This document shows positions 4,843-61,243 of a stretch of DNA of 64,000 nucleotides, piece by piece. The stretch's first letter is position 1; each line of letters begins with the position of its first letter. The DNA is taken from the NCBI RefSeq assembly GCF_029873635.1, contig NC_080423.1, positions 101,680,991 through 101,744,990 of the forward strand, in the 5' to 3' direction. Position numbers and translations under genes: made by a program. The notes under the pieces were generated by a model. That model was not told where the DNA came from and searched no databases. It saw only the letters and a list, made by a program, of their open reading frames with translations. This DNA is from Malania oleifera. Its lineage: Eukaryota > Streptophyta > Magnoliopsida > Santalales > Ximeniaceae.

Positions 4843-5367
4843 TGTTGGGGACGTGATTCATATTTCGAGTGGAACACATACACCCGAGAAAGTTACGTAA
4901 AGCGAGGAATAAGAGCAAGAGAGAAGGCTGCGGGAAGAGGGAGGTTTTAGGCATAATACAAAGGACTGCTTCTCGGCTTCAAACCATCGACGGTTTTGGT
5001 CGGCTTACGTCACATAATTTAAATTGAGAGGCCATTAGATTGGGTAGATCGGAGGTTTTTCCTCCAAAGATCGCTACAGGGATGGTTTAGATAGGATCTA
5101 AGGTTCATGTACGTTTAGAGTTCATATATAATCAATGTTTTGTAACCCTAATGTGAGCCTGACATAATTGATAGTGAGAATTGCTCCCGTGGATGTAGGT
5201 AAATTTTTGAACCACGTAAATCTTGTGTCTTTTTATTGTTGCTTTCATTCTTCTCATTATTGAGTGTCTGCTTCTTAGTATTGTTCATCATTGAGTGATT
5301 GTACTGATTGTTTGTTGATTAATTCGTGAGTGTGTGAAAGGCTTCCGTTGCGCATCCGCGAACAACA
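4843..5367 (+). repeat. 5' LTR of the Copia element
   Basis: Begins TGTTGGGG and ends AACAACA, followed by the primer site. It carries a GTCGAC-type near-palindrome (about 4979-4996), a GGAGG-N5-CCTCC hairpin (5051-5065) and a TATATAAT box (about 5125). Confidence 0.9.
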
Positions 5368-8300
5368 AGTGATATCAGAGCTATTGGTTCACAATGGCTG
5401 GGGTCTCTTTGATGAAGTTCAATGTTAACAAGTTTGACAGAACTGGGAGCTTCAAACTTTGGCAAAGGAGGGTGAAGGACTTGCTAGTGCAGCAAAGGAT
5501 GGTGAAGGCTCTATATAGAAAGAAGTCACACGATATGAACAACGCAAGTTGGAAGGAGATAGAAGCAAATGTTGTGTTCATTATCAATTTGACTTTGTCT
5601 AGTCGATGACATGATGTATCACGTCATAGATGAGTAATCGTCGACTACAGTTTGGCTGAAACTTGAAAGTCGGTACATGTCCAAGTCGCTTACGAACAAG
5701 TTGTATTTTAAGCGAAAGCTTTATTGGATTAAAATGGCAGAGGGTTCGGACCTGACTCAACACATCAACACATTCAATCGGATCATTAGTGATCTAAAGC
5801 CAGTTGATGTGAAGTTCGAGGAAGAGGATAAAGCATTGATGCTACTGAATTCCCTACTTATGTCTCCTACATATGAAAACCTGGTTACGACATTGACTTA
5901 GGGGAAAAAATCCTGGAGTTGGAGGACATAACGGGGGCAGTGTTGGGTTCCACCAAAAGAAGAAGGCTAGCAATGAGGCTTCACATGCTGAAGGGCTTAT
6001 GGCAAAGGGGAATCGGGATCGTGGGGGGAGCAACTTCTAGGGTGGATTGAGCAACCATAGGGCTTGGTCCAAATCCGTGAAGAGAAAGGACATACGGTGT
6101 TTTAAGTGCGGAAAGATAGGGCACATAAACTCGAGTATCCAGAGAAGAGGAAGGGGGTTGCTGAAACCAAAAAGGTTTCATCAAAAACGGCGAATGTAAT
6201 AAAAGAAGGAGACTTTAGGAGCAGTGATGGTGATATGCTCTCGGTTTCATTGGGGTTGGATGAGTTTGCAAATTCTTGGATCTTGGACTCAGTGTGTTCT
6301 TATCATATGACGCCCAACAAGGATTGGTTCACTACGTACAGATTGGTTAGTTCTCGTTTCGTTTTAATGGGGAATGTGCAAAGTGATCAGGATGGGGAAT
6401 GTCAGAATCAAGATGTACGATGGTGTGGGAGGACGTTGTGTGACTTGAGACACATACCAGAGTTGAGGAAGAATCTGGTTATATTAGGCACAATGGATTG
6501 TAACAGGTTCAGTTACAAATCCAAAGGTGGGGTAATGAAGGCGAGCAAAGGCGTTTTGATCATAATGAAGGGAAGAGAGTGTCAAATAATATATACACAT
6601 TGCAGGGTACCAATGTAACGACCCGAATTTAAAAATGAAATTTAAATAATAAGGAAAGGGAAATGGAAACCGGAAACAGAAGGAAGCCGTAGACTTCACA
6701 TTGCATTTCGGAAGGGAAAAAAAACAAAAAGGGGGAGTTTTAGGGCTTCGTCGACGAATCCCCTATATTCGTCGACAAACACAGGGGGCTCATCGACAAG
6801 TAAATACCGAGAGAGGTTCTGAGGCAGCCTGAATTTCATCGACGAACACAGGGTCTCGTCAACGAAATTTGTGAAGGACTCGTCGACGAAGGTCGGGCTC
6901 GTCGACGAAATCCTATTTTATAAGAATGAAAAATCCGGGAGAGATATTATTTTTTTACGAAACCTCTCTCTCTCTACGGTTCTCTCTACATTTTCGGCCC
7001 CACCAGTCGTCAGATCGATGATCCGAAGTCACCACGACGCTCCTGGCGGAGTTCTCTCCAAATCTGCTGGAGTGGATCATGGGAGAAAGCTAGTTGGAAA
7101 TCATCCCAAAGTTGAGTTAAGGCTTTTTAAGCCATATTTGGTCTTGCGCTAGTTAGAAGAAATGTTGTGCGCATGAAAATACTGAAATTTAATACTGGAG
7201 GTTTTCAGTTTTAGAGTGTTGGTCAGGGAACCCCTTAGGTGTTAAACTTGAACGCTTTTGGGTGAAAACTTTCTACCCAATATTTGGGTTTTTGGCAGTT
7301 GAGGAAAATATTGTATACTTTGAAATACTGAACTTTAATTCTGAGATTTTTCATGTTTAGGGTGTTGAGTTAGGAACCCTGCGGGTGCGGGACAATTTTA
7401 TTAGGGGCTTTCCAGGAATCAGGTAAGGGGATAAACTAAGCTAGTACTGTTTTTGGAAAATGCTTATACATATATATAGTTATCATTTGATTTATGAAAA
7501 ATGTATATGTTTATATATACGTATGTTTTATATTTGCAAATGTGACGCCCCGACCCGCCAAGTGGGGCTCGAGTGCCACGTGTTCCAATCACCTGTATCT
7601 GATACCATAATTAACATACATGCAGCAGCACATGAATAAATAACCTCAAATAAATACCAGAGTTCTATATAACAACTAAAAATCAACACTATAACATCCA
7701 AATATCTATATCCACAACCAGCATTTAAAACGTAATTCCGTACAAATATATCTATACATATATTAGTATCTCACAATATCCCAAAAAGAAACTATCACAA
7801 ACAGTCCCAGCCTAGGCCTTCAAACCCGGTCTCCAGAAGAACCTGAAAAATTGTTAATCCACTAGGGTGAGACACTTCTCAGTAAGGGTGGAATAAATTA
7901 TAACAGTGTGTGACAAATGAGTTTTAATATTTATAACTCAAAATAAACTGCTTCTTATATAACATCAATAACAACTGAGAAAATGTACCATTAATAACAT
8001 TCCCGACATCCAATATCACACACACATTCAATATGCACAAGTACATAATTTTTATGCAAGCGAAAGTCCCCAAGGATAGGGAAGATTACCTGCCCATACA
8101 AGTAGCTTCCCTCTGCTCTGGTACTAAAAACTACCTATCAGAGCACTCACCTTACTCAGTAAGCCCTTAGGTGAAGTATTACCTCGCCGCTAGTCCACAG
8201 ATAATTATTATTTTAAAGGCGAAGGTTTCCAAGGATCAGGATGTCTACCCGCCCATACAAGTAGCATCCCTTTGCACTGATACCAAGAAACTACCTAACA

Positions 8301-8454
8301 GAGCACTCGTCTTTCTCAGCAAGCTCCCGGTGGTATGTTTACCTCGCCGCATGCACACACATGCATTCACAATATGCTATATCATTATTTTTATGCTATA
8401 ATTAAATTCACATGCACACAACACATCCACACAGGAATCATGCATCTCATACTT

Positions 8455-8700
8455 CATCTTCCAATGTCCTCAGTACATGGCCCACACAGAGCAACTGCGT
8501 ACATGTCAATACGTGGCCCACATAGGCACCTACGTACTTCTTATCTACACATGGCCCACACAGGTACCACTAACCGCACAGGGTACATAACATGGCCCAC
8601 ACAGGCGCTATTATCCACACAGGATATAACGTGGCCCACACAGGCACCACTACCCACACAGGGTATATAACATGGCCCACACAGGCGCCATTATTCACCA
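8455..8700. repeat. Minisatellite in family Y LTR (TGGCCCACACAGG units)
   Basis: About seven imperfect units of roughly 30-40 bp sharing the core TGGCCCACA(C/T)AGG. Spacers degenerate around TAxxCACAxAGG. Confidence 0.85.
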
Positions 8701-9881
8701 GTATCCAATCCCCATGACCTACCCGTCATACATCAGTAGAACAAGCTCCTCGACCTGCCAATGTCCTACCCCATATAAATAACGATATGACGAGCTCCTC
8801 GACCTGCCAACGTCACATCATCATTTATATATAGGCAATATAACAACCTCCTCATGCCAACGTTATATTGAGATGCATACGAATAACCACACAGTTAGTT
8901 CACACAAACGCATTAAATCATTTCCACACAGGAATCAAACATAACAACTCATTCATCTTACCATAATCATTTCAAACACCCCCACATGCAAACCCAAATA
9001 CCACAGTAATTCATATCCAATTTATTAGGAAAATTACTCCCATGTCACACGAATTTAATATCATAAACAATTATCCCAAATATAACCGTAAACCAAATAA
9101 TCATTTTTTTTCCAGTAATCAAACTATTCTGAAAATCATATAAATAAATAATAAATTTCGTATGCTTGTAAATAATTGGTTCACTTTAATAAAATACTGA
9201 TATAATTTTATTCCCCCTTACCTGATTCCCTGAATTACGCTTGCAGGGCTCCCAAACTTATACCCGTGACGCTCACCCGAACCCTGATTCAATCAAATCA
9301 ACCCCAATAAAATATTATTTTAACATTTCCTAATTTATAATAATTAAATGATAATTAATTTCTAAATAACACATTTATCCTAATTTTGGACTATTTCTAC
9401 AATAACCCCACGAGAATTTCATTCCGCTAGACTTGTAGAGAATCATCCCTAGATTCTCGTGGTGGTGTCCGATCGCCCATTTGGCTTAAAATTTAAGAAA
9501 AATTGAGATAAGAATGAGAATTTGGCTTACCCCACGAGATATTCCCACGTTACTCCTACGACAAATCCACTTCGGTAGATATATCGGTGGCGAAGAATGG
9601 AGTTCGGTGATATCTTCGGATTTCCAATTGGGCGAGAATCGGCCGTAAAATCGTAGAAGAAAGAGGAGTGGAGAGTGAGAGAATATATTTAATTTTTTTC
9701 TTTCTCTTTCTTTCTTTCCTTTCTTATCTGTTCTGTGTGCGTGAATTTTTTTTTTCTCCTCTTTCCTTCTATTTTGTTCCAGCAAGAAAACTTACACACT
9801 AGGTTTTCGTTTTTTTTTCTTTTCTTTTCTCTTTTTTTTTTTTCTTCTTTCCTTTATCCTTTCTTTCTCCTTTATCCATTC

Positions 9882-9885
<4 letters not shown>

Positions 9886-9917
<32 letters not shown>
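9886..9917. repeat. (TA)n tract near the end of the family Y LTR
   Basis: TA dinucleotide run followed by TA-rich imperfect sequence to about 9980, after a long T/C-rich leader. Confidence 0.85.
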
Positions 9918-9919
<2 letters not shown>

Positions 9920-10251
9920 TTACTTATATATACTTTTATATATATATACTTACATATATACTTTTATATTTATATATATATCCAAAATCCTTAAATTTAT
10001 TAATTTAATTAATTTTCTTAATAATAATTAATTAATAATAATAATAAATTTTTTTTAATTAATAATTTATTTATTTTATTTATTTATTTTTTGGGTCGTT
10101 ACAGCAAAATACTGTAAAAATGATCGTATATTGAGTATGTGAAAAATCTACTGTGTGGCATGAGTAAAAATATTGTGTAATGTTGTTTTCCGGGAACGTG
10201 GATGATGTGAATTTTTATGAGGGAAAATCGGCGTACAGGCCGAGATGTTTT

Positions 10252-10255
<4 letters not shown>

Positions 10256-10330
<75 letters not shown>
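10256..10330. repeat. (AT)n(GT)n compound microsatellite in family X LTR
   Basis: AT units (about 14) pass into GT units (about 22) with one CT interruption. Confidence 0.95.
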
Positions 10331-10332
<2 letters not shown>

Positions 10333-10505
10333 ATATGTTTGCCGGCGTACGGGCCATGCTATGTGATTTTCTAGTGTATGGGCCGTGCTATGTGATTTGC
10401 CGGTGTACGGGGCGTGCTATGTGATTTTCTGGCGTACGGGCCGTGCTATGTGGTTTGCCAGCGTACGGACTATGCTATGTGATTTGCCGGTGTACGGGCC
10501 GATGA
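10331..10505. repeat. Minisatellite in family X LTR (GCCGGCGTACGGGCC units)
   Basis: Six imperfect units of about 30 bp with the core GCCGGCGTACGGGCC plus ATGCTATGTGATTT. The centre CGTACG is palindromic. The sister LTR at 28227-30397 carries the same array at about 29110-29395. Confidence 0.9.
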
Positions 10506-13500
10506 TTTTTATGATACATGTATATATGTGAAATGATACGATTGATGTGAAAATAAATGAAATGAGATATTTATGTATCATGGTTTCAGTATATGTATAT
10601 GATATCAGAACCTGGTTGACTTGGTTTAGGCTAGCACCTGCATGGTACTGTTGCTATGTGTCTATGATCCCAGTGATCGTGATATCTGTGTTAAAGCCGC
10701 TGTATGGAGTGGTGTGAGATTGGATGGTCGATGTGGTTATTTTCGAGAAGTGTGCTGTTATCGCCCCTGGTGTACGGACTAGTTTGGGTGGACCCATCGG
10801 ACCTATAGATTAGACTATCGACTTGGCAGTGGTCGGCTAACCATTGTCAGGTCCCGCTTTCGGGCCACACAACCCAGTCAGTGGGGGTAATACATGACAA
10901 CAGCCAGCTAACCCACCAGGATGATTTTTATGTTATTATCATTATCATGATATGAGATGAGAAATGTTTATGAAAATGCAGTATATTCTGCCATGTTTTG
11001 ATATACATATGTTTTCCCAGATTTGATAAACAGTATTGAGTATGTTATGTATGGTATATGTAGAACACCATATACTCATGTTGCCACACACTAGTATTAG
11101 TTTATTTCCCTTACTGAGAGGTATCTCACCCCTAAATTTTATTAACTTTTCAGGAGCCCCGGATAGGAAAACGGGAAAAGCCCCGCAGAAATAGTGTTGT
11201 TTATCTGCCCTCTGCGAAGGGTAAGTTTTTGGTAAGGACAGTTAGGTTTTTGTGAGAATTGTCCCTAGATTCCATTTTTGGGATGTATATATATTGAGAG
11301 TTAGTGTTTATAGTACTCTGGTATGTATTGGGCACATTATGATGAGATGTATATAATTTTATACTTTCTGCTGTGTAGGCTTCTGCTAGATGTTTTGTTA
11401 TATCCCTGGTACCCACGGGTCCAGGTGGATGGTAACCTGCTGAGTTGGATTGTGGGATATGTAGTATTGATTTTATAATGTTGATCATATAAAAAAAAAA
11501 AAAAAGTAAAATGAGCAGGTCGTGACAACCAAGTTTGTCGGTGGAGCTGCAACCGTAAAGTATGAGTCTAACAATACAGTTTTATGGCATATGCGTTTAG
11601 GGCATATGGGTGAGCGTGGAATGAAGGAGCTTCATAAGAGAAATATTCTAAAGGGGGTCAAATCATGTGAGTTGGAGTTCTGCAAATACTATGTGTTTGG
11701 GAAGCAGAATCAAGTTCAATTCATGACAGCCACACACAAGACGAAGGGAGTATTAGACTACATTCGTTCGGACATTTAGGGACCGATGAGAGTGGTATTA
11801 CGAGGGAGACATGTGCATTTCGTGAGCTTCATCGACGATTACTCACTAAAGGTCTGGGTTTACTTCATACGACACAAGTCAGAGGAGTTTGCCAAGTTCA
11901 AACTATGGAAAGGTGAGGTGGAAAACCAGACCAGGAGAAAGATCAAGTTCCTCAGGACAGACAATAGAATTGAGTACACAAACTCGGGTTTCAGAGAGTT
12001 TTACAAGAAACATGGCAGAAGGAGGCATTTTATAGTACACCGGACACCGTAACAAAATGGTGTGGTGAAAAGGATGAGTCGAACCTTAGTTGAAAAGGCT
12101 CGATGCCTTAGGTTACATGCTGGGCTTGCCATGAATTTCTAGGTTAAGGCGGTTAGTATGACTTGTTTCTTGGTAAATAGATCATTAAAGGCATCACAGA
12201 ATAGGAAAGTTACTGAGGGGGTGTGGACAAGTAACGAGGTAGACTAATCTGGATCGAGAGTATTTGGGTGTCTAGCCTATGCGCACATTCCTGGTGAGGC
12301 GAGATCTAAGCTTGAGGCGAAGTCTAGATGGTGTATCTTTCTAAGATATCAGATTGGCGTGAAAGGGTTCAAACTGTGGGATCCAGTGGCAAACAAGGTG
12401 GTGATCAGTAGGAACTTAGTTTTCGATGAGAAAACTATGTTGCGGCGTACTCAGGAAGAATAAGAGAAATAAGTGCTAAAAAATCGCAGCAGCAATGAAC
12501 ATGCAATTCAGGTAGAGTTGGAGACTCAGGGTAGACATGTAGGGAGTCCTAGCCCGAGAGATCAATCAGTGGTTCAGGTGGAGTCAAAAACTCAAGGTGG
12601 ACATGACGGTGTTTAGAAAAGGATGAGTTTTAGCTCAGATGACCAACAATTGCGTCGTAGCATAACTGTAGACAGACCCAGATGTGTTTTTAGGCCACCC
12701 CCCAGGTACGGTTTTGACAATCTGTTGTCTTATGCACTTATCACTAGCAGCAAGGATCCTACTACCTTTCAAAAGGCTGTGCATAGCCAGGAGAAGGGTA
12801 GCTGGATAGGGTGCTATGGTAGAGGAGATGGAATTATTGCATAAGAACCAAACGTGAGACTTAGTGGAGCTTTCAGGTGGGAAGTGGGCGATTGGATGCA
12901 AATGGATATACAGGAAGAAGGAAGCATTTTTAGAAAGGGAAATAGAGAAGTACAAGACTCCCTTAGTAGCAAAGGGACACTCGTAGAGGAAAAGAGTAGA
13001 CTATGAAGAAATATTCTCCCCTGTGGTTAGAAACACTTCCGCTAGGGTAGTGTTGGGACTGGTGGCGCAACATGATATGCATCTCAAGTAGATGGACGTA
13101 AAGATGGTGTTCCTCCATGGTGATCTATAGGAGTTGATTTACATGACATAGCCAAAAGGGTTTAGCCAACCTGAATAGGAGCACTTAGTCTGCAAACTGA
13201 AGAAGTCACTGTATGGGCTAAAGAAGTCTCCAAGGCAGTGGTACAAGAGGTTTGACGCCTATATGACCTGTATTGGCTACAAGAGGTGTGAGTACAATTG
13301 TTGCATCTATGTAAGGAGTCTTGTGGATGGGTCACTCATATTTCTACTGTTGTAATGTTGACGATATGGTGATTGCTGCTAAAGACATGATCGAGGTAAA
13401 TCGATTGAAGACTTTGTTGGGATAAGAATTTGACATGAAAGACTTGGGTGCCGCCAAGAGGATACCTGGCATTGAGATTCACAGAGATAGAGCTGCAGGG

Positions 13501-14410
13501 AGACTATAGATATCTCAAGGTGGCTATGTGGAGAAGGTGTTCGAGAGGTTTAGCATGGCTAATGCTAAGCCAGTGAGCACACCTTTGATGACTCATTTTT
13601 GGTTGTTTACTGTCCAATGCCCAAGGACAGACGATGAGGTTTGTGATATGTCGGAGGTCCCCTATGTTAGTGCAGTGGGGTGTCTGATGTATGCCATGGT
13701 GTGTACGAGATCGGACCTGGCACGTGCCGTTAGCGTGGTGAGCAAGTTCTTCACAAATTCGGGGTTAAGCATTGGGATATTGTCAAGTGGATTCTTAAGT
13801 ACATAAAGGGTACACTCGGATATGACATCATATTTAGTGGACAACATAGTAATACGTCGGTGGTAGGGTATGTGGATGCTGACTACGCAGGAGACTTGGA
13901 TGACATAAAGTCTACCACGTGGTGCGTATTTACCCTTGTCAGAGGACCTATTTGTTGGAGGTCTGGTGTTGTCACTCGTAACTTTATCTACTACTGAGTC
14001 GGAGTATATGGCAGTGGCTGAGACTGCCAAGGAAGCATTGTGGCTTACAGGATTGGTCAGAGAGCCGGGTGTCCAGTAAGATGGAGTTCGGTTGTAGTAT
14101 GATAGTTAGAGTACCATTTACTTGGTGAAGAATCAGGTGTGCCATGCGATGACAGAGCACATTGATGCGCGGTATCACAAGGTCAAGGAACTGATTGCTT
14201 CAGGGGAACTTATACTTGAGAAGGTTCAACATCTGACAATGCAGCTAATATGCTAACGAAACTGGTCACAATAGACAAGTTCAAGCATTGCTTGGACTTG
14301 ATCAACATCTCCAAGTGCTAGACGGTAGACAGTCTCAATCTACTATCCTAGGTGGAGCAGCGGTTATACTTTTAGATTTCTTAAGTGGTGAATATTCGCT
14401 AAGGTGGAGA

Positions 14411-14992
14411 TATTGGGGATGTGGCTCATATTTTGAGTAGAACGCATGTACCGGGAAAGCTATGTGAAGCGAGGAACAAGAGCAAGAGAGAAGGCTGTAG
14501 GAAAAGGGATAACCATCAATGGTTTGGGCTGTAACCGTCGACAGTTTCAGGTAGAATGTAAGGGACTACTTCTTGGCCTCAAACCGTCAACGATTTGGCT
14601 TAAACCGTCGACGGTTTCAGTCGGCGCATGTCACGTAATTAAAATCGGGAGGTCAGTAGATTGGGTAGATCAGAGGTTTTTCCTCCAAGAATCGCTATAG
14701 GGACGGTTTAGATAGGATCTAAGGGTCCTGTACGTTTAGGGTTCATATATAGTCAATGTTTTGTAACCCTAATGTAAGCTTGACATAATTGATAGTGGGA
14801 ATCAGAGTTGCCGTGGATGTAGGCAAATTGTCAAACCATGTAAATCTAGTGGCTTTTGATTATTGCTTTCGTTCTTCTCATTACTAAGTATTTGCTTCTT
14901 TAGTATTGTTTATCATTGAGTGATTACACTAGTTGTTTGTTAATTAATTCGTGAGAGTGTGAAAGGCTTCTGCTGCGCATCTGCGGACAACA
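14411..14992 (+). repeat. 3' LTR of the Copia element
   Basis: Matches the 5' LTR along its length with clear divergence. It contains the perfect 16-bp palindrome AAACCGTCGACGGTTT at 14602-14617 and two related copies upstream (about 14530 and 14580). It ends in CA next to the TTATT duplication. Confidence 0.9.
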
Positions 14993-17900: not shown

Positions 17901-18940
17901 ATAAAATATTTAAATACTATTCACTTGTAGAAATAATTTTATTTTCCAATTTTAAATTTTAAAATATTTAAAAGCACGCCATCTTGTTTTTTCATTTTTT
18001 TAAAATTGTATAAAAAATTGAAAATCATTTTTATTATTTTCTAAATTTTAATATTCTCATATAATTTTTGAAAAATTTTAAAATTAGGTTTTTTATAATT
18101 ATTTGGAAATCTAGAAATAAAAAAAAATATATTTTCACAACAAACCAATCATTTATTTTCTATGTTTTTAAATAAAAATATTAAAAAACTGAAAAATAAA
18201 TCAAAATTTTATAATTATTTTAAAAACTAAAAAAAAATAAAAATTATTTAAACCGGTCGCAATTAACTTCTATTTTTTTTTCTCACATTTTATTTTTCAT
18301 TCTACCTTATTAAACGAAAAAAGTTTAAAAGAAAAATTAAATTCTTTAGACACAATGATGTGGCACCAAACGCGACAAGTGAAAGTCGCTCGCCCATTGA
18401 CGCGTGCCCTTGGTAATTTACCGGCATAATAATGCCTCAATGGAGAATTGAATCCGAGACTTTGAAGTCACCAAAGTCATAAGTTACCCTTACCACTTGA
18501 GTTAGTCCGATTAGGTCACAATAGTGCACAATTAGAAAGTAGAAATAGGAAAGAATTGAATTCATATTGATTGATTAAAGTTTTTCATTTACATATATAG
18601 TTATTTATTTAAAGGTCTTCATCAATAGAAGGGATTAACGTGAGTAATACTAACACAAGCTCAAATAATCATGAGCCAAGTATCAAGCCTATCAGAATGA
18701 AAAACATAGACCTTATACTATCTTATCCCATTAGGGTTTGTCACGTGGGCCTATGATGACACAAAGCCGCGTCATCGAGCATTTTATATTAAGATAAATT
18801 TGAACCCATTTTTCTCGTAATTTTTCCTTTTAAAAATAAAAGTCAAGTATAACGTGTTTGGTAGGGTAAGGAGCATCCAAAAATAGAGAAAAGGCATTTA
18901 AAAAGCTACTTATATTCATAATCATCTAGGGTTTCTAACC
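14993..18940. other. AT-rich intergenic DNA with a diverged direct duplication
   Basis: No gene seen. Two stretches repeat in the same orientation: about 15480-16330 and about 17900-18850 (shared anchors: 'caccatcttgttttt', 'ttgattgattaaa', 'catcccattag', 'gatgacac'). The DNA between them is very AT-rich. The copies differ considerably, so the duplication is old. It could be a remnant of an element with long terminal repeats, but I found no TG...CA ends. Confidence 0.6.
18345..18530. mobile_element. Short unclassified insertion inside the second duplicate copy
   Basis: About 185 bp of higher GC sequence interrupts the second duplicate relative to the first. It contains 'ttaccacttgagttag' and 'gaatccgagac', wording common in short repeated plant elements. 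I cannot classify it and see no clear inverted repeats. Confidence 0.4.
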
Positions 18941-22136: not shown

Positions 22137-22944
22137 GAGAGTGAGAGAGAAAACCCTAGGAGAGAGAAAATGTGAGTTGAAATGAAATATTATAACAAAC
22201 ACTTAACTTATAAGCCCTTACCCGTAGAAAAAAACTATCGACGGTTTGCTCACTTACCATACCCAAACATACAGTCAATGTCGTCACACTAAGCACCCAA
22301 TTACCATGCAATAATCGAAGCCTCACAGCGATAACATTGCCAATACGAGCACCCAATAACCGTAGCCTTACAGCGATATTGTTGCCACTACGGTGTAGCG
22401 CACACCCATCGGTGACCAGCCGAAAAGAACAAGTGATATTTCACACCCTCGGATATAGAGCCAGATACTCTCATCCACAGTAATTAGTCGAGACATGGCG
22501 TCAGTGTACAGTAATTAGTTGCCCCAAGCTAATTCAGCGTACGGTAATTAACCGCCCCTAGCTGATTTATAGAATTTGGAACAATTTTGGAACTCATGTC
22601 CCTATACTCATCAGCGTACAGTAATTAGCCATCCCTAGCTATTTTTACAAAACTTGGAACATTTTACATACAACAGTTCATTCCACACTTATTTGGTATA
22701 CAGAAAATCATATCATTTTCAGTTTAAGAATACAGTTTAATACAAATATGGGTACGGTCATCTCAATACTACAGTTTTAATACAACATACGATTTCTCCA
22801 ACAAAATAGAGATGATACTCAAAACCCCCAAATTTTCTCGAAAACTGTAACTCGAAAATTTCACATTTTCACCCAATAGATTTTCCCAAATAAGTGACCA
22901 AAACATACATATGATCATAAACAACAGGTTTATCGATCCCGAAA

Positions 22945-23446: not shown

Positions 23447-25612
23447 GAATGTATATAATCCGTCTTGGACTTTGTGCTCTTTGTCCCTTATGTGTGATCT
23501 CAATCATAGACCTGTGCACATGGTAAATACATACATAAGTTCCCGGTGTTTCATTAGCATCAAAACAGAGATCAGACTCACAGAATCAACTTTTCCCCCC
23601 ATGACAGGTTGTGCGGTCGTAGGCTGAACTTAGCCCTAGCCAGCCTGCCACCAGGCTAGCTAAGTCAACTATACTGTATGACAGTTAGTACGAATGACCA
23701 TCCCATAGCTAGTCTAGACTCTAGGTGGGAACTCTACACTTCACTGACCCACTCGACTATTTAATACCAACACTCTCCCCGAGATGTGTGGTTGCACTAA
23801 GCTGTTCATTACATTAATTGCGGTACCGAGCGATCTATGGTCCATCAGAGTTCTAAACCATACATTATAATTTAACAATACTCGTGGTCTATAGGCCACC
23901 ATAATTATTTACTATATATGCATTCTTTTCAACCATTCCAGAAAATAATATATCATCAACACATTTCCAGTAATCATTATATCAAACTATAAACTCATAA
24001 CTTTAATTAATCAATAAATATCTTTCTCATGCCACATGATTTGAGTGTTTCTCATAATTATATAAACTACTGGAAAACGGGTCATTTTATACCCAATATC
24101 TGTTTTACCAAAAATACAGGTTTAATTATCTCCATCATTTATTTAACTCAAAATATGTATTTAAAGGAAAAACGGAGATAACCAACCCTACTCACTTTAA
24201 TTCTTTACAAAATACGTATAATAAATCAAACCAATAATTTTAACTGGTCAAATCATTCAGAAAATCTACTACAATAATCCAGAAATCAAATACTTTAATT
24301 CAATCGATTCAACTTTAAAATAACAATCATTTAAAATTCCTAAGCTCACAAACACCAATTTAATTAACTTATAATAATAATAATAATAATTCAAAATCCA
24401 ATTTCCATATGCCAGAATATTCAGAAAAATGTGTATATAATTCCTGTAATCTCATATTACAATTTAATCAATTAAATGATAAAAAATTGCTGACATAATT
24501 TATTCCTTTTATCTTATCCTAGGAGTGGTGCCTACGACGCTCCTACGACAAATCCACTTTGGTTAAAATGTTGGTGGTTGAATTTGGAACTTAGGGATAC
24601 TTCCCGTTTTTCAATCTGCGCATGATTCGCTGAGAAATCTTAGAGAAAGAGAGAGAGAGAAAGTTGGACGAAGGAGAGAAAGTGGTGAGAACTGAGAGAA
24701 AGAGACGAAGAGTGCGCTGGGGGGTTTTGTTTTGATTTATTTCAAATCATCCTGAAAGTTCAGGATGACTCGTCTTCTTTTCATACATATATATCAATAT
24801 ATATTATAACCTTTACTTATATATCTAATTTATATTATATTATTATATACATATATATACATATATATATATATATATGTCATATTATTCGTTTAATTAA
24901 TTCAATTTATTAATAATTAATTAATTAATTAATTTTTTTTCTAGGTTACTACATTCTCCACTCATAAAAATTTTGTTCTCGAAATTTGCTAATCAATCAT
25001 TTTACATAACCTTAACATTACTTGACCTTCATTATACGACAAATTCAATATACTCCACAGATATGCATAAATATGTTACGTAACATTCAAATCCTCAATT
25101 AAAAACATCAAACACTCAAATTGACCACAAATCGTCAAATTACAACACCTAAATTACCAAGATTCTCCTTCAAAAACTTGTCTCCACTATCAACTAACCT
25201 AATCTTCGAGTTCAAATTTCAAGTTCCAATCTCTCTGCTCGAAAACATCACCATTGATGGGTTTACCATGATTTTCTAAAACTCGCGACTAATTCGAAAA
25301 ATCACAAAAGACCATCAAAGAGTTTCTACCTCTAGGCCACGAAACAAAACTCAAAATTTCTTACCAGTATCCTAATCTACCCATTCCTATCCTCGTCCTA
25401 ACTCAAACCTATACTCTGGTATTAATCTGCCCTAGAATCTGTAGAACCTAACAACCTAAAGCTCTGATACCACTTGTGATGCCCCAAACCCGCCAAGTGG
25501 GGCACGGGGTGTTATGTGTTCCATTCACCTAACTCTGACACCATAAATATCATTCAAGTAGCAGAATATGATTAAACATCCTCAAATAAAATACCAGAGT
25601 TATAAGGACCCG
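23447..25612 (-). mobile_element. Gypsy-derived element with very short internal region (family Y LTRs)
   Basis: Minus-strand order: 5' LTR from 25475 rightward (TGTGATGCC end, recognisable to about 25612), primer site at about 25460-25475 (antisense gctctgataccacttg), about 520 bp of non-coding internal sequence, a polypurine tract (antisense attctccactcat at 24953), and a 3' LTR ending at 24952. No gag or pol is present. This is the layout of a non-autonomous derivative relying on proteins from a relative. Its left limit is uncertain because of the neighbouring Cassandra. Confidence 0.7.
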
Positions 25613-46457: not shown

Positions 46458-49400
46458 TTACAGACATGACAGATGAAAATCAAAGATAGGCATGCTGCAG
46501 ACTGGGTAGTACTTACAAGATCTCTGTTGCAGAATCATTAATGCAGTTTGCAGCAACTCCCGAGCCTTCCTATCAGGAGTACATCCTGTGGATTCCATTT
46601 CCTCGTAAATCCCTTGTACCTGGTCAACAAAACATATGAATGATATAGAGTCAAATGGCTACATGAAATATTTGGCTTTGATTTATCATTGATCAATGTT
46701 TCACTTGACTGCTAAAAAGTAATAGGAAAAGAAACTTGGAATTAGAAAACCAACTGTCTGTTATAATAGTCCAACTTTTCACTTTTCCTTTTTCTGTGTT
46801 CTCAGCATTCAAAGCATAAATGAAAAAATGAACAATGGCTTGAGAGTAGAGGGTATATATACCTGATCAAACTTCTTTGCTCTCATAAGTGCCTTCATAA
46901 GTGTAGTGTAGGTAACTACATCAGGAGTTATACCCTTTGGAAGTAACAAGATCCTTGTTAAAAACATAGAAATAGAAGTATCTAAAGAAAGAATGGAACA
47001 AAAAGTCCAAAGGTCCTACAACTCAACCTTCCTTGCTTAGTCATATACATAAAATCCAAGTGGAAAATGCTTACACTTTCTTTCATATGGTGATAGATTG
47101 ATATTGCCTCCAAATGCCTTCCAGCAATGCCAAACGCATTGATCAAAACATTCAGAATTACAAGGTTTGGTTCAATACCTTCTGCTTCCATGAGCTGAAG
47201 AACCTTCACTGTCTGCTCACAGAATCCCTGCATGGGATACATAATTACAAACCATTATTGGAAGTTTTATGTGTTCCTACAGTAGATAGCTACAAACATC
47301 TGAATGGAAGCATAATTATTTGCATATAACAGAATCAATCTTAACTACGTGTACATTGGTTGGCCAGACTATGACGTCCAAAGGAAAAAACCGTCATTGT
47401 TGTTGTATTCATTAATTCAGGAAATCTGACAATTGTTTCAAGCACAAGTTATCAACTAGCCAGATGAGGCTCAAATAAAATAAAAATAAATAAATAATGA
47501 AAGGAGGTTCATCTACTATTATTTTAGATGTTTGGCATTATCATATTTCATCGGGTTAGTTTTCCAACATGCATACTCCATTCTTCAGTTTTGAAGCACA
47601 CACATACAACCCATGACCCCCACCATCCCAAACTTCTAGGTACCATGATCATAGATGCTGAGATGTAACACAAAATAATGCTATTTTCCACGTCATATTT
47701 TTACCTTATTCGGATTTCTTAAATAATGATGATGATAATCATAATCTGAAAGATGATTGGATGTTCTACAGAGAAATATCATTGCGTAAGCAGTCTCATC
47801 ATAAATTAGTTTAACATTAAGAGTCCTGTTAACAGATGTCCATTACCTTTAGCATTACCACTTTAAGCAGTTTTCACTTATTGCTATGTAAATAACTTTT
47901 ATAGTTCCTTAACAAGTGACCCTTTATTAGAAAAATGTTGGGGACGTGGCTCATATTCTGAGTGGAACGCATGTACCGGGGAAAGCACCGTGAAGTGAGG
48001 GACCAAGAGAGAGATGCAAGGAGCAGCCTTGAGGGCAAACCGTCGACCGTTTGGGGTGTAACCGTCGACGGTTTCAGGCAGTGTTGCAAGGTGTTCTTCT
48101 CGGCTTCAAACCGTTGACGGTTTCACTCGCGGATGTCATGGATTTTTGAATGCGAGATCAGTAGATTGAGAGTTTTTGGAGGAATTTCCTCCGGGGGATC
48201 GCTACAGAAGTGTTTTAGATTAATTATAGATCTTCTATACACATTAGATCATTATATATTCATTATTATATAACCCTAGATTGATTAGGGCTTGTGAGCT
48301 TCATTGAGATAGTGAAAACAGCCGCTGCTCTTATGGACGTAGGCGAATTTCCGAACCACGTAAATTCTTGTGTTCTTTGGTTATTACTTTCATTGATTCT
48401 CATTGTTAAGTGATTGCTAGGTTCATATAGTTCATCATCGAGTGTTTGCTTGCTTGTTCCATTAATTGTTCGTGAGAGTTCGTGTGGTTATGTCTGGCTG
48501 ATGATGTGTTGTATCACATCATGGATGAGGACTCACCTGCAGCGGTTTGGTTGAAACTAGAGCGCCGTTACATGTCCAAGTCACTGACGAACAAGCTGTA
48601 TCTTAAGTAAAAATTATATTGCCTTAAGATGGCAGAGGATTCGGACTTAACTCAACACATCAACACATTTAATTAGATCATTAGTGATCTGGGGCGAGTT
48701 AATGTGAAGTTCGAGGAAGAGGACAAAACGTTAATGCTACTGAATTCCCTACCTACGTTGCCTACATACGAGAACTAGTTACGACGCTGACTTGGAGGAA
48801 AGAAACCCTGGAGTTAGAGGACATCATGAGTGTATTGCTGGGGTTCCATCAAAGTAAAAAAGGCCAGCGATGAGGGTTCACATGGTGAAGGGCTCGTGGC
48901 GAAGGTTAATCAAGATCGTGGGAGAGGCAAGTCCTAGAGTGGATCGAGTGGTAATAAAACTCAGTCCACAAGGAGGAAGGATGTTTGTTGTTTTAAGTGA
49001 GGAAAACTATGGCACATAAAACCGGAATGTCTGGAGTGGGAGAAGGGAAAAGGAAAAACTCAAGAGGGTTTGTCAAAATCTGCGAATGTAGTTGAAGAAG
49101 GGGATTCAGGGAGCAGTGATTGTTAGATGCTTTCTATTTTATTGGGTTTAGAATGCCTCACGGGTTCTTGGATCCTAGAATTGAGATATTTTTTTCACAT
49201 GACACCCAACAAAGCCCGATTCACCACTTATAGATTGGTGAGTCCTGGTTCCGTTCTGATGGGAAACGGTGCAGTCTGTAAAGTTGTCGGAATGGGGGAT
49301 ATCAAGATCAAGATGTATGATGATGTGGTAAAGACATTGTGTGGGGTAAGACATGTACTCGATCTATGAAAGAATGTGATATCATTAGGTGCTTTGGATT

Positions 49401-52400
49401 GTAACGGGTATAGTTACAAGTCTAAAGGCGGGATGATGATGGTGTGTGATAGCGTATTGATAGAGATGAAGGGACAGAGGATAGCAAGGAATCTCTATAC
49501 ACTTTAGGGTAACACAGTTGTAGGTGGAGCTGCAGCTGAGAGTTCTGAGTCAGATAATACCGTTTTGTGTAATACAACCACACACAAAATGGAGGGTATT
49601 CTTAACTACATTAATATGGATGTTTGGGGACCAGTGAGGGTAGCATCATGGGTTGGACATGGGTATTTCGTAAAGTAATCACGAAATGTTTGGGGGTATC
49701 TCATGCGGCACAAGTTGGAGATGTTTGCTAGGTGTAACTTGTGGTTGAGGTGGAGTACCAGACTGGGAGAGAGTTCTTCAGGTCAGATATTGGTGTTGAG
49801 TACACTGGTGTTCAAGGAATTTTGTGAGCAGGACATGGTGTTTGTAGGACTTGCAAGAGACTTCTAGGTAAAGTCATTGAGTATGACATTATTCTCGATT
49901 AATCGATCGCCAAAGGTATCAGTAGATGAGAGAGTTGCAGGGGAGGCTTGGACAGGTCGTGTGGTAGACTTCTCTGATTTGAGAGAGTTTGGAGGTCAAG
50001 CCATGCACGATTCTAGTGAGGTGGGATCTAGGTTTGGTGTGATGTCTAGACAGTGCATCTTTCTAGTATAAAAGAAAGTTGGGTTCAAGTTGGGTGATCC
50101 AATCACAAATGGGGAGGCAATTGGTCAGGACATGATTTTCGGTGTTAAACTCATGGGACAGCAAACTCAGGTAGATGAAGAGAAACGGGTGCCAGAAAGC
50201 TGCAGTAGTAGCAACAAGCATGTTGTGCAGGTAGAGTTGGAGACTTAGGGCAGAAGTGCAAGAAGTTCTAACTTAGGAGACTTGCAGTATCACATGATAA
50301 ACTGGAGCAAAAAAGAGATTGTGATGCAGGTAGAGTTTCAGACTTAGGGCAAAGATGACATTGGTCATGATGTAGGGAGTTCAAGCTCAGGAGAGCAACA
50401 AGATCACAATGGGCTTAGAGGCACTATTAGGCCACCGCCCAGGTTGATCTGATGTTTTATTCAACCATCACTATTAGAAAGGATCCCATTACCTTTCAGG
50501 AGGCAGTGCACGGCCAAGGGAAGGGTAGGTGGATAGGTGCCATGGTGGAGGAGATGAAGTTATTGTATAAGAATCAGACGAGGGGGTTGATGGAGCTCCC
50601 AGAGGGTGAGAAGGAGATAGTCTGCAAGTGGGCAAGTATTCTATTGTTTTATGTGAGCGACATGCCGATTGTTGGGAAGGTTCCGATCAAGGTAAATCAT
50701 TAAGGGATTCTATTGAGAAAGGAAGTTGACATGAAGGTTTTAGGTACTACTAAGAGTGTTCCTGGGTTGGAGATTCTCAAGGATAAAGCTGCAAAGAAAT
50801 TGGGGTTATCTCAGGGTGGCTGTGTGGACAAAACTATAGGGAGATTGTGATTATCTCAGTATGGTTTTAGGGATCAGGTGTTGGAGAGATTTAGCATGGT
50901 TGATATTAAATTGGTCACCAAAACACCGTTGGTGAATCTAAGTAAACAATGTACCGCTCAGTACTCGAGGACGGACAGTGATGTTTGGAACGTGTCAAAG
51001 GTTTCCAATGCCAATCCAATGGGGTACTTTGGCAAATAACAAAGTGATCCGTTTGTTGCGAGGTTCGTGGATGGAGGCTACACAGGAGACTTGGATGACG
51101 GGAGGCTTACAACGGGGTACGTTGTGGGAAACCTACTTGTTGGAAGTCCAGGGTACAGTCTCAGGTCACACTGGTTACAACTAGATTGGAGTTCTTGGCA
51201 GTGGCTGAGGTTGCCAAGGTAGCATTGTGGTTTAGAGGATCATTCAAGGAGTTGGGTGTTCAACTAGGTGGAGTTCCTACTACAACGCCCAAACTTGGAC
51301 TTGGTTTACGTCTCCAGGTGTTAGACGAGAGACGAGTCCCAATCTACTAGCCTGAGTAGAGCAGTGGGGATTATGTTTTCAGATTTCTCCTAAGTAGTGA
51401 ATATTCGCCAAGGTGGAAATTGTTGGAGATGTGGCTCATATTCTGAGTGTAACGCATGTACCGGGGAAAGAACCGTGAAGCGAGGGACCAAAAGAGAGAT
51501 ACAGGATGCAGCCTGGAGGGCAAACCATCGATGATTTGGGGTGTAACCGTCGACGGTTTCAGGCAGTGTTGCAAGGTGTTCTTATCGGCTTCAAATTGTC
51601 GACGGTTTCACTCCTGGATGTCACAGATTTTCGAATTCGAGATCAGTAGATTGGGAGTTTTTCGGAAGAATTTCCTTCAGAGGATCGCTACGGAAGTGTT
51701 TTAGATTAACTATAGATCTTCTATATGCATTAGATCATTATATATTCATTATTATGTAACCCTAGATTGATTAGGGCTTGTAAGCTTTATTGAGATAGTG
51801 AAAATAGCAGTTGCTCCCGTGGACGTAGGCAAATCACCGAACCATGTAAATTCTTGTGTTCTTTGGTTATTGCTTTCATTGACTTTTATTGTTGAGTGAT
51901 TGCTAGGTTTGTATAGTTCATCATCGAGTGTTTGTTTGCTTGTTCAATTGATTGTTTGTGAGAGTTCGTGTGAGATTTTCCGCTGTGCACACTCGCACCG
52001 ACAATTGGTTTCTGAGGGCTAATTGTTGGTGATCAACAATTGGTACCAAACCTAGGTGATTGTTGGTGTGGGCAATTAACAACAACAAAAAATACTAAGA
52101 GTAAACAATTATTGGACTCATACCACCGACTGCCATAAACACGCCAAGCACTTTCTTTAAGCATATTGAGAGAGATGTGGACTCAAGAGGTAGAAATGAA
52201 GGGAGAGCACAGTAGCACACCTGTTGAGCATAAGCATTTGCTAACACACAAAACATGCTAGCTGAGGGTTGAAGACCCTCCACCTTTAAAGCACGTACAC
52301 ACTCTTCAGCATCCTGAAAACTCCCATATTGCCCATAAATATCAACCAAAACTGCATAAATCGCCCCACTTACTCGGTGCCCTTTACGTTTCATTTTCTC

Positions 52401-53465
52401 AAAATTCTCATTTATCATAGCCCACTTCCCTTGCTCGCCCAAACGGCTAATGATGGTAACGAAAACTTTTGGGTCAGGATATAATCCTTGTTCTAGCATC
52501 TCAGTAAACAACTCTAGAGCTTTAGATAGATCCCCAGCCTGACAATGCCACCGAATCAAAGAATTCCATGTTGTTATATCAGGCTTTATACCTTCTTGCT
52601 GCATTTTCTCAAACACTTGTAAGGCTTGACCTAATTCACCATACTTCCCATATGTATCAATTATACTGTTATAAATCCGATTGTCCAGTGAAACCCCCAT
52701 CTCCTTTATCTCTTTTATTATCCCAATCGCTTTCTTCCACATCCCATGATCCCTATAAAGACCAATAACCTTACCATACACAAATGAGTTCATCGGAAAC
52801 CCTTCCCGCTTCATACTACTGATAGTAGACCATGTATCTTTCAACCGCCCAGCATGGACGTGGTAATTCAGCAGTATCTCATATGTTTCCTGATTCCTTC
52901 TAATACCCAAATCAGCCATTACAGTCAAAACCCTGTCCGCAAGCCCTAAGAGGCCTTTTCTCAAATACCCTCTGAGCAAGGCATTACACACTCTCTGCGT
53001 TGGCATAATCCCAGAAGAATTCATTTCTTGAAAGATTGCTTCAGCTTCCCAAGTCCTGCCCGCAACCCCAAGAGCATCAATCAAGCAAGCGTAAGATACA
53101 GGGTTGGGATGAAACCCCAGAGCCTCCATTCGAGCAAGACACGCCATAGCACTATCAATGTCCCCTGCTTTGCAAGAATTGCTAATTGAGTTGTTATAGA
53201 AATCGTAAGAAGGCTCCTCTCCGATTCTAGTCTTGTTTGGGAAATCATTCGAGTTGTTTATGCTGGTTGAAATTGAAACGTTAATGTTCTCTTTTGCTAC
53301 CGCAACGAGTTCTCTGCTGCGCTGCATCTGATGATGCAGGGCATTGAAGATCTTGCATTTCACCGGACTTCCAAGAGATTGGAAACAGAAGGTGGGAAGC
53401 GGAGAGATGGCGTGAAGGAAAGGAATTAAAGGAGATTTATCAGGATGCTTGAGTGGAATCTCCAT
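46458..53465 (-). CDS. P-class pentatricopeptide repeat (PPR) protein
   Basis: Four exons on the minus strand: 53465-52221, 47227-47075, 46934-46863 and 46619-46458. All junctions are GT-AG and in phase 0, giving about 543 aa. Residues 1-85 are a non-repeat N-terminus that could target an organelle. Twelve consecutive PPR motifs of exactly 35 residues follow, ending TGCTPD, then a short tail (RKARELLQTALMILQQR). No E, DYW or SMR domain is seen, so this is P class: organelle RNA binding, usually stabilisation, splicing or translation. Residues 5 and 35 of the repeats read NN, AT, NN, EN, GD, ND, ND, VS, AS, CN, ND, TD. By the known code ND favours U, NN favours C/U and TD favours G. The last exon may instead splice at a strong TCTT|gtaagt donor (after LQQRS) to an acceptor near 46116, giving an immediate TGA. 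Intron 1 (4993 bp) holds an antisense Copia element. The motif order and tail recall CRP1-type P-class proteins, but I do not assign an orthologue. Confidence 0.88.
47936..48492 (+). repeat. 5' LTR of the intronic Copia element
   Basis: Shares nearly its whole length with 51421-52003. It carries TAACCGTCGACGGTTTC (about 48059-48075), two related palindromes (about 48036 and 48105), and a GGAGG-N5-CCTCC hairpin at 48178-48192. The inner boundary is approximate. Confidence 0.8.
51421..52003 (+). repeat. 3' LTR of the intronic Copia element
   Basis: Begins TGTTGGAGATG and ends CGCACCGACA. Palindromes at about 51543-51560 and 51594-51610. Confidence 0.82.
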
Positions 53466-55347
53466 GGTCTCCCCTGTTTCGCTTTCGCTGCAGCAGAAAA
53501 TATGGAGTATAGCAAACGTTAAAATGGATTATACCAATGTAGGCGAAAATTGATTCATATAACTTATTTTTTTATATTATTTAAAATTCATAAACATAAT
53601 TGATTGTTCAAAATAAAAACCTAATTATATTGTATACTTTAATAATTTTTAATTTTATATTTCCCGATTTGACATATGACTCAAATTGAGCTGAAAGTTG
53701 AATTGAGTTGAATAGTGAGCATGTTGGCTCAGATCAAGCCAAATAATGAGGAAGTTGGCTCAGATAAAGTTAAACAGTGTGAGTATCGGCTCGGTATAAG
53801 TCATATTATTTTGCAATCAGCTCAGTTGAGCCAAAGTGACCCCTTCATCGGCTCAGGTTAGGCCGATAGGTTTTGGGGGAGGGCTATGAAAGCCTATAGC
53901 TGACTTCGATAGAGCTAAAATACCTAGGGTTCGGTTCAAATTATAACTCTCAAATGAAATAAATTTATTTCGAATATTTGAGAGTGTAGGGGGCAACTAA
54001 TACACCAAAAATTGATAAATACGCTCATAGGTTAAACAACTATAAGAACACAATTTGATGCATCGCATAATTGCCCTTAAGTTATCTGTAACCCTTGGTA
54101 CGGTTATAAGAGCTACTATTGATATCATGCATAATCGCCTTTAAGTTACTCATAACTCTACTAAGCATAATGACACTCTCATAAATTCTAAGTTGAAGGA
54201 GGATCTGTCTCCACCATTGTAAAAAGGTGATCTCACGGGGAGGTAAGGATTTCATTCTCACTTACTCTTTACTTACTGTTGTAATATGTACCTCCCATCC
54301 CCTAACTTTGGCATCGGAGTGATTCCTCGGAGTATACCCCAAGTCGTCCAAGTCATCCTCATTTGGCTCTTTTTAGGCGATTGCGGTTGAATGACCGTTT
54401 ACTAAAGTGGTTCAATTTTTGGCAACAACAAATTGTAACAAGAAAGGTAAAAGATACTAACATTTCTTGAGATTTGACAAAAAAAAAACAAAATGTTGAT
54501 CTTCCTTAAGATTTCAAAAATCATACCTCTCCAGAGCTTCGAGAATTCTAAAAACCTTTCCTGAGATTTGTTGAAAAAAAAAAAAAATATAAATCTCTCT
54601 TTATATTTTGCAAAAAGATAAATATTCTGAGGGAAGATTTGTATTTTTTTGGTAAATCTCATTGGAGGTTTGTGACATTTTTAAAATATCAAGTAAGATT
54701 AATGAGATTTTTAAAACTTTAGGACATATTTTATTTTTTTGTCATATTTAAAAGGAAGTCAATAATTTTGCCTTAAAAGAAATATAGTCACTTAAAGTAA
54801 TGTTTTGTTTGTGAATTGGAATGAGACAACGGATGAACAAAATAAAAAGTTGAATAAAGTGAATGATGAAATCAAGTGATAAATTCGATTTCATTCTTCT
54901 AAGCAAATGCTAATAATTGAAAATACATAAGTAAAATATAATTTTTTTTTGGTTAAAAAACAAATTCTAGTTTCCAGCCATTGATTTTTTGACCAACTTA
55001 ATTAGATAGTGATTTGATAAGTGTTGATTCACACATATATTTTTAAATGAATACAATATGTGGGTTATGAAATGTGAAAACTATAATAAATGCATATTTA
55101 TCCTATAAATTAACTTTAAGGGTCCATTTAAAATTAAAAATTTTGGTTAGGAAAAGAAAAGAAAAAAATAAAAGAAAATTCATTTTTTGTTAAATTTTCT
55201 CTCTATATCAAATATTACTAAAAAAATGAAATTTATTCTAATAAGATAAATTTTTTTAAAAAATATTAATGGTGCAAATAATTTAATTTATGTTTATTAA
55301 TTTAATATATATATATTTTTTATTTTTCACTTTCTTTGATAACCAAA
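53466..55347. other. PPR promoter side, then repeat-derived DNA
   Basis: The first 100-150 bp should hold the PPR 5' UTR and core promoter; no clear TATA box was seen. From about 53650 to 54410 the wording (gttggctcaga repeats; 'aaggtgatctcacggggagg'; 'ctttggcatcggagtg') resembles the LTR and leader of a plant retroelement, but I cannot set its ends. From 54420 to 54780 A/T-rich sequence with repeated 'gagatttg' resembles 15290-15420. The remainder is AT-rich. Confidence 0.45.
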
Positions 55348-55942
55348 TGTTAGGAAATTTAATAAAATAAAAATAATAAAATTTAAACACAAATAAAAAT
55401 AAAATATAAACACGATTTACAAATAGGCTGAGATACGAATATCTCGCTCTCTTTAAGGAAATTCAAGCCCTCTGTAATTTTTTAACTCAACCCATGAATC
55501 GGTGCAGGAGAACTCCTCAAGACTTATCTCCCCTAAGATACAGTAACCCGATTTGAATTGTATGATTCTTTCCAATTTTGCACAAATGGAGGAGTTCAAA
55601 GCTACACAAAAAAACACTTTTCTTCACTTGTCAAACTCTCTAAAATTGAAAGAATGATGACATGATGAATGATGTAAAGAGAGTGGTGTGCAATTCTAAT
55701 GCCTTAAGATTCTATTTATAGACATAAAATGACTTTTCATTCTCCTTGCACTTAATAAATAAGATGTATAAATATTAAATAAGTACACACCTAATTTTAA
55801 GATATACTCTCATAATTAATCTTATGAATTTATAAGATACATAAATGAATGACCTAATTAAATGTAAATACATAACCCATTCCAATATACATAATCTTTT
55901 CCAAGATAATATATAAAATAATAATATCAAAATATACTAACA
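55348..55942 (-). repeat. 3' LTR of the minus-strand Copia element
   Basis: Ends are inverted (TGTTAG...CTAACA) and the inner edge abuts the polypurine tract. It has no obvious palindrome cluster. Confidence 0.8.
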
Positions 55943-60936: not shown

Positions 60937-61243
60937 TGTAGAGACCCGAACCCGTAAAAATAAGAAAAGGACAAAAAGGGATTTTGCAGGCTTCGTCGAC
61001 GAAGCTAATGTTCTCGTCAACAGATACCCTTCGGCGCTTCGTCGCCAAAATTCAGAGTCTCATCGACGAATAGATCCCGACCGACATGAAAAATATTAGA
61101 CTTGGGTTTGTCAACGAGGGAGGAGGTTCGGCGACGAACAACCTTCTACATCTCGTCAATGAGGGACCAATTCGTCCATGAGTCTGACCAGGTCAAAAGG
61201 CCTATAAATATCAATTTTCATTGCTTAAGGGTCAAGAAACCCT

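Follow-up and report, generated by a model that had tools for sequence, protein, structure and literature searches.

Introduction

The gypsy retrotransposon of Drosophila, a Ty3/gypsy element, contains the Su(Hw) array, in which roughly twelve short sites bound by a host protein follow one another. In the deltaretroviruses bovine leukaemia virus (BLV) and human T-cell leukaemia virus type 1 (HTLV-1), the unique 3′ (U3) part of the long terminal repeat (LTR) contains 21-bp repeats whose repeated cyclic AMP response elements (CREs) bind CREB/ATF, and methylation of the CRE hinders this binding (PMC7601775, parts surveyed). In plants, ONSEN/COPIA78 and other heat-responsive COPIA elements of Brassicaceae have clustered host-factor sites in their LTRs that were gained independently by family (PMC5059998, PMC3907296, parts surveyed). 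VANC anti-silencing proteins act on VANDAL transposons at densely arrayed copies of a single short motif, and these arrays evolve through tandem repetition (PMC5735166, parts surveyed). Here, we describe arrays of palindromic sites in a 64,000-nucleotide stretch of the Malania oleifera genome (contig NC_080423.1, positions 101,680,991–101,744,990, forward strand; hereafter the window), which is rich in nested LTR retrotransposons. The sample throughout comprised the nine U3s of this one window (36% GC), five from Ty3/gypsy LTRs (G1–G5) and four from Ty1/copia LTRs (the 5′ and 3′ LTRs of copia A and copia B).

Results and Discussion

GTCGAC occurs 21 times in the window, compared with 3.8 occurrences expected from dinucleotides, an excess larger than that of any other of the 64 palindromic hexamers. 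Eighteen copies lie within the nine U3s (2,585 bp) and three within the remaining 61,415 bp. All 11 copies of the octamer CGTCGACG (ca. 0.05 expected) lie within eight of the nine U3s, the ninth, CA5, having none. A preliminary description of the sequence had proposed that copia and gypsy LTRs share the GTCGAC core; the sharing was borne out, although the common core extends to the octamer. When all 4,096 possible 12-bp palindromes were ranked, which is the test independent of the motif chosen in that description, TTCGTCGACGAA came first in the gypsy U3s (22 sites with ≤ 2 mismatches) and ACCGTCGACGGT in the copia U3s (nine sites with ≤ 2 mismatches). The best palindrome of any kind in dinucleotide-shuffled U3s reached a maximum of four sites (60 sets per group). 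The palindrome clusters are therefore real when the U3s of each group are pooled, and more strongly so than first claimed.

The two site forms can be written as TCGTCGACGA and AACCGTCGACGGTT. The list of sites with ≤ 3 mismatches and the spacing classes given below were chosen after inspection of the data, and the U3 boundaries vary between scripts by up to ca. 20 bases on each side. Beyond the U3s, two near-sites were obtained with the strict motifs, at 11828 (within copia integrase codons) and at 22234, and the looser gypsy pattern gave one more, at 12980. The near-site at 22233–22246, AACTATCGACGGTT, is a lone sequence that differs from the copia site at two positions, situated outside any LTR recognised in the window. 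No near-site was found in the repeat and unique 5′ (R-U5) parts of G1, G2 and G4, three of the five gypsy LTRs. The minus-strand LTR-like stretch at 55348–55930 has no site, as had been reported initially.

Array plan and position relative to the TATA box

The gypsy U3s contain seven (G1), six (G2), nine (G3), seven (G4) and eight (G5) sites, so that the earlier estimate of three to seven copies per LTR was too low. In G1, the array covers 6747–6909 on the plus strand, with sites at 6747, 6768, 6789, 6835, 6855, 6879 and 6898 (start-to-start steps of 21, 21, 46, 20, 24 and 19 bp) and TATAAGA at 6919. The plus-strand array of G2 (28351–28495) has sites at 28351, 28372, 28391, 28439, 28463 and 28484 (steps 21, 19, 48, 24 and 21), followed by TATAAATA at 28504. 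The array of G3 was confirmed at 32857–33067, close to where it had been placed, and was found to belong to the minus strand; the left ends of its sites are at 33056, 33036, 33016, 32992, 32971, 32922, 32901, 32877 and 32857 (steps 20, 20, 24, 21, 49, 21, 24 and 20), and TATAAATA begins at 32836. In G4 (34335–34503, plus strand), the sites start at 34335, 34360, 34381, 34425, 34446, 34471 and 34492 (steps 25, 21, 44, 21, 25 and 21), with TATAAATA at 34512. Finally, the G5 array (60992–61182, plus strand) has sites at 60992, 61013, 61038, 61059, 61107, 61127, 61152 and 61171 (steps 21, 25, 21, 48, 20, 25 and 19) upstream of TATAAATA at 61203.

All 32 gypsy steps fall into the classes 19–21, 24–25 or 44–49 bp, with a single long step in every array. 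When sites were redistributed at random, with their number and span kept (20,000 trials), on average 9.5 and at most 20 steps fell within 19–25 or 44–49 bp, a contrast that is optimistic because the classes were derived from the same data. G2 is one site short after the long step, which may shift its slot numbering there by one. The TATA box lies 8–20 nt past the last gypsy site, in agreement with the earlier statement that the clusters end within about 20 bp of it.

In copia A, the 5′ LTR (ca. 4843–5369) has one site at 4982–4995 and alignment gaps where the 3′ LTR has its three further sites. The 3′ LTR (ca. 14411–14992) has sites at 14511, 14533, 14582 and 14603 (array 14511–14616; steps 22, 49 and 21). 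The two LTRs of copia B, both with steps of 22 and 49, have sites at 48038, 48060 and 48109 (5′ LTR, ca. 47937–48486; array 48038–48122) and at 51523, 51545 and 51594 (3′ LTR, ca. 51422–51972; array 51523–51607). All copia arrays are on the plus strand. A TATATA stretch occurs 129–131 nt past the last site in all four copia LTRs, and shorter TATA strings lie closer in three of them. At every palindrome position given in the preliminary description, a site was present within a few bases, and its two perfect 16-bp palindromes (14602–14617 and 60990–61005) are the only perfect CG-centred 16-mers found.

Over the first 14 nt of the 44–49 bp step, identity among the five gypsy LTRs is 61%, with a sequence approximating ATAYCGAGRGRG (28403–28420 in G2); no extra palindrome was seen by eye inside this step. 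The start of the long step may possibly be a second, non-palindromic element. The bZIP-like heptamer TGACGTG is confined to G2 (28476–28482) and G4 (34484–34490), where it falls between two sites towards the TATA end of the array. The hexamer CCGAGA is present in some U3s and is too patchy for use.

Conservation of the sites and decay of their CpGs

In the 37 gypsy sites, counted without their outer Y and R letters, 41 of 222 CpG letters were changed (40 by transition), compared with five of 148 non-CpG letters (Fisher P = 8e-6). CpG transitions thus account for 40 of the 46 departures from the motif. At the dinucleotide level, 71 of the 111 CpGs have been kept, 38 have become TG or CA, and two are otherwise altered. 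In G3, two units at 33028–33067 have a common site and an identical 8-bp spacer (GGATCACA), a local duplication whose two sites are not independent. Without these two sites, the counts are 39/210 CpG letters and 5/140 others. The same trend was found in the copia sites (11/66 CpG letters and 3/88 others changed; P = 0.009), where LTR pairs are not independent.

The four non-CpG letters are 93% identical between gypsy sites. In contrast to these letters, the spacers have largely diverged. The first seven bases of same-slot spacers show an identity of 0.23–0.53 against a between-slot background of 0.25, with the highest value at the start of the long step, and the last seven bases show 0.24–0.34 against 0.30. 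This difference bears on the possibility that the arrays are functionless leftovers of a tandem repeat, in which slippage multiplied a unit of ca. 21 bp, or of 46 bp with two sites. Local duplication does occur, as the identical spacer in the two G3 units indicates, and some spacer likeness remains in the two slots before the long step (0.41–0.44 vs. 0.25 between slots). However, a leftover of this kind would not explain why the spacers diverged and the non-CpG letters of the sites did not, and the slot spacing is kept across the five LTRs. In addition, Tandem Repeats Finder reported no array in 6600–7000, the sole stretch scanned. We regard functionless leftovers of slippage as a very improbable explanation of the arrays.

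The copia LTR pairs provide a yardstick for decay. Outside the sites, the copia B pair differs at 38/463 non-CpG and 13/45 CpG positions, and inside them at 2/24 and 5/18; the copia A pair differs at 61/460 and 17/50 positions outside its one shared site, and at 0/8 and 1/6 inside. Halved, the outside-site rates are ca. 4%–7% for non-CpG and 14%–17% for CpG positions, compared with 3.4% and 18% in the gypsy sites, a rough comparison in that copia pairs are applied to gypsy sites. The change rates of the sites, about half of the copia B pair divergence, are thus as expected for sites that were near-perfect at insertion and neutral since. Choosing sites by similarity favours few changes, while the regular spacing locates the slots partly independently. 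Since the site changes are mostly CpG transitions and the non-CpG letters have rarely changed, the sites were probably near-perfect when the elements inserted and then decayed as methylated DNA does. On a plain reading, selection would have held the sites in active lineages while the spacers drifted, and decay after insertion would have proceeded at the ordinary methyl-CpG rate.

The CpG-specific decay also fits the earlier suggestion that the palindromes are a CG-rich methylation target. CpGs elsewhere in the LTRs, however, decay at a similar rate, so that methylation explains the decay of the sites but not why they exist.

Possible function as U3 enhancers

We consider it likely that the arrays are U3 enhancers, that is, rows of putative dimer sites for a host DNA-binding protein. 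An enhancer of cooperating dimers is favoured by the near-symmetrical sites of 10–14 bp, their spacing of about two helical turns, the mostly free spacers and, in gypsy, the position just before the TATA box. Dimers of a host protein would occupy sites ca. two turns apart (19–21 bp, mixed with 24–25 bp), and several bound dimers would act together in bringing the transcription machinery to the TATA box downstream, which adjoins the row in gypsy and which, as the TATATA stretch, lies ca. 130 bp downstream of the row in copia. With three symmetrical CpGs in every full site, the array would be covered by CG methylation, which may block binding of the factor. A dimeric host-factor site was also one of the three ideas offered in the preliminary description, and it appears to be the best supported of them.

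Several observations weigh against this interpretation. Of 11 known-factor patterns tested, none is repeated along the arrays; the closest one, the IDD-like TTTGTCG, occurs in three gypsy U3s at sites that have lost one or two CpGs. In single U3s, the signal is weaker than in the pooled sets. Palindromes of 12 bp with ≤ 1 broken pair are not above shuffles in G2, G5 and CA5 (169, 118 and 257 of 1000), nor is GTCGAC in G3 and G5 (136 and 145 of 1000), CA5 containing none; perfect 12-bp palindromes are in excess in CB5 only (45 of 1000 shuffles). The copia spacing taken by itself does not reach significance (random P 0.08–0.18). Furthermore, the array as a whole is not better conserved than its flanks: identity between G1 and G2 is 0.805 before the array, 0.685 within it and 0.718 after the TATA box, and that between G2 and G4 is 0.614 in the array and 0.675 after it. 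Finally, the outer gypsy letters (Y...R) are symmetrical in 21 of 37 sites, not above the 17.3 in shuffled sites, which indicates that the gypsy dyad is 10 bp.

The outer letters are also informative about nucleic-acid structure, under which adjacent sites would form hairpins, either at the 3′ end of the element RNA or in extruded DNA; a hairpin in the LTR was the remaining idea of the preliminary description. A 10-bp stem closed by a 7-nt loop can form between two neighbouring G1 sites (z = −4.4), each of the two 16-bp palindromes can fold by itself (z = −2.9 and −2.0), and the G1 array as RNA gives z = −2.2. Nevertheless, repeating any palindrome yields such z-scores, and folding of a single 12-bp G1 site is weak (−1.4 kcal/mol, z = −0.7). 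The variable outer letters, whose complementarity within sites is not above shuffles, are no more complementary between neighbouring sites (27/64) and thus lend the hairpin no support. A structural role of this kind seems very improbable.

The most interesting rival to an enhancer is sequence-specific anti-silencing, in which a protein bound to the array keeps the U3 unmethylated, as VANC does on VANDAL transposons, and the array is not a classical enhancer. A short motif densely repeated in non-coding DNA is likewise reported for VANC21 targets (PMC5735166, parts surveyed), and the observed/expected CpG ratio of the U3s (1.26–1.96 in gypsy and 1.02–1.11 in copia) exceeds that of the window (0.65). 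In contrast, the VANC21 motif YAGTATTAY occurs in none of the nine U3s, although the motifs of other VANCs may be different. Matches from the 11 retroelement pieces scanned were of gag-pol type, weak or absent, in broken copies and in a search for extra genes that was not exhaustive. The decay pattern, moreover, suggests that the sites were methylated after insertion. Taken together, anti-silencing appears an unlikely explanation.

As U3 enhancers, the arrays would work most like the 21-bp repeats of deltaretroviruses and the heat-shock clusters of the ONSEN type, and they belong to neither by motif. With the Tax-responsive repeats, as the sources surveyed describe them, they have in common repeated U3 dyad sites for a dimeric host factor, which is putative here. 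They differ in that the deltaretroviruses have three repeats with TGACGTCA-type CREs and the gypsy U3s six to nine sites with fixed steps. TGACGTCA occurs in none of the nine U3s and TGACGTG once each in G2 and G4, in a scan confined to perfect CREs. We know of no Tax-like transactivator in these elements, in a search that was not exhaustive. The Su(Hw) array has another motif, lies outside the U3 and belongs to an animal element. Clustered putative host-factor sites in plant LTRs are the likeness to ONSEN-type elements as described in the parts surveyed. The heat motif was scarce (TTCnnGAA in 0/9 U3s, GAAnnTTC in 1/9), and symmetrical Cs are reported to be missing from the ONSEN LTR (PMC3907296, parts surveyed), compared with 14–23 CGs per U3 here. 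VANDAL transposons, in the parts surveyed, differ in encoding their own binding protein, whose target is a 9-mer in one orientation.

In literature surveyed by titles and abstract openings, outside which many subscription papers lie, no published description of such a motif array in LTRs was found. Among the matches listed for the letters of the motif, none had an LTR subject in its title, and no word beginning with 'palindrom' occurs in the surveyed parts of Horvath et al. (PMC11656987).

Relationship between the gypsy and copia arrays

The core and the spacing suggest, but do not prove, a link between the arrays of the two superfamilies. The preliminary description had named exchange of one segment between the families as an alternative. 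Self-comparison gave no copia–gypsy match of at least 100 bp, and the U3s gave only eight matches of 10–18 bp at E ≤ 1, the best of which (11 bp) had E = 0.17; exchange was accordingly rejected. Convergent capture, as first proposed, is plausible, but is not proven, given the few copia steps and the four-letter core of the shared half-site.

It is conceivable, and in our judgement rather doubtful, that copia and gypsy elements of one plant lineage independently adopted one cis-regulatory grammar, with CGTCGACG-centred dyads, a spacing of about two turns and one break of 44–49 bp. This grammar would be read by one dimeric host factor, and its three CpGs per site would turn the promoter into a switch densely targeted by methylation, in contrast to the CG-poor strategy of ONSEN. 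Quite possibly, the resemblance is instead a coincidence, each lineage having its own factor and the common CGTC half-site reflecting chance or a general preference for dyads rich in CpG. Coincidence concerns only the gypsy–copia link and is compatible with an enhancer function; the flanking letters (AAC vs. YT) and the TATA distance are unlike, and the copia steps are few. On the other hand, the four innermost letters of the half-site are identical, for which a simple count gives about 1 in 256, and the copia steps of 22, 49 and 21 lie within or beside the gypsy classes, an agreement with a probability of ca. 0.05 under a simple uniform model, which is rough and uses widened classes.

Elements carrying the arrays and neighbouring features

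The elements belong to two superfamilies, and the gypsy LTRs form two subgroups with a common array plan. In alignments of at least 100 bp, G1, G2 and G4 are mutually 65%–77% identical, G3 and G5 are 73% identical, and the four copia LTRs are 68%–89% identical. No match of at least 100 bp joins the subgroups (G1/G2/G4 and G3/G5) in the self-comparison; their U3s share the LTR starts and short matches, several of them at sites. All five gypsy LTRs begin with TGTARNGACC, and G1, G2 and G4 end with GGTCGTNACA.

Copia A (ca. 4843–14992, plus strand) contains copia gag, gag-pre-integrase and integrase pieces, and its profile matches (Retrotran_gag_2, 1e-19; rve, 2.5e-8; Pol_BBD, 5.1e-15; gag_pre-integrs, 3.8e-15) place it in Ty1/copia. 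The two LTRs of copia B (ca. 47937–51972, plus strand) are 89% identical. Within copia A lies G1, a gypsy solo LTR with homology to G2 (6614–11527, plus strand; target duplication ACCAA at 6609 and 11528). G1 itself contains a later insert at ca. 7541–10105, which starts with TGTGACGCCCCGACCCGCC, is related to 25475–25604 and lacks GTCGAC. G2 is likewise a solo LTR (28227–30397, plus strand; target duplication GATTC at 28222 and 30398), located directly after pieces of gypsy reverse transcriptase and RNase H. G3 starts at 33096 on the minus strand. G4 (34260–36287, plus strand) was taken as a 3′ LTR because a purine-rich tract, an SH3-like (SH3_Tf2-1) piece and a weak chromodomain-like piece come before it. 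The element before it matched RVT_1 (1.1e-16), RT_RNaseH (4.9e-18) and SH3_Tf2-1 (1e-20); its Chromo match was weak and sub-threshold (E = 0.059) and was outscored by DUF3425. G5 starts at 60937 on the plus strand. Between retroelements, a long open frame of pentatricopeptide repeats (52095–53525, minus strand; PPR_2, 2.9e-55) is probably a resident gene.

Relatives were sought in viral or microbial rather than plant collections, where misses say little. The two-site gypsy pattern gave 32 stretches in viral contigs, all spaced 18, 21 or 24 bp, that is, by whole codons; these were taken, not inspected singly, for coding repeats of other organisms. The two-site copia pattern was absent from the viral contigs and genome contigs searched, and protein searches of viral contigs with the gypsy reverse transcriptase and copia integrase pieces confirmed no relative.

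Implications

The arrays offer a natural series for studying how CpG methylation erases promoter sites, since in old copies the sites seem to have been lost mainly via methyl-CpG decay. We hypothesise a host factor shared across the two superfamilies, or related factors in each, and a candidate could be sought directly in existing DNA affinity purification sequencing (DAP-seq) libraries. If this is true, site, spacing, break and TATA box would form a readable regulatory code common to two retrotransposon superfamilies, from which it could be predicted, by sequence, which elements a given host factor could wake.

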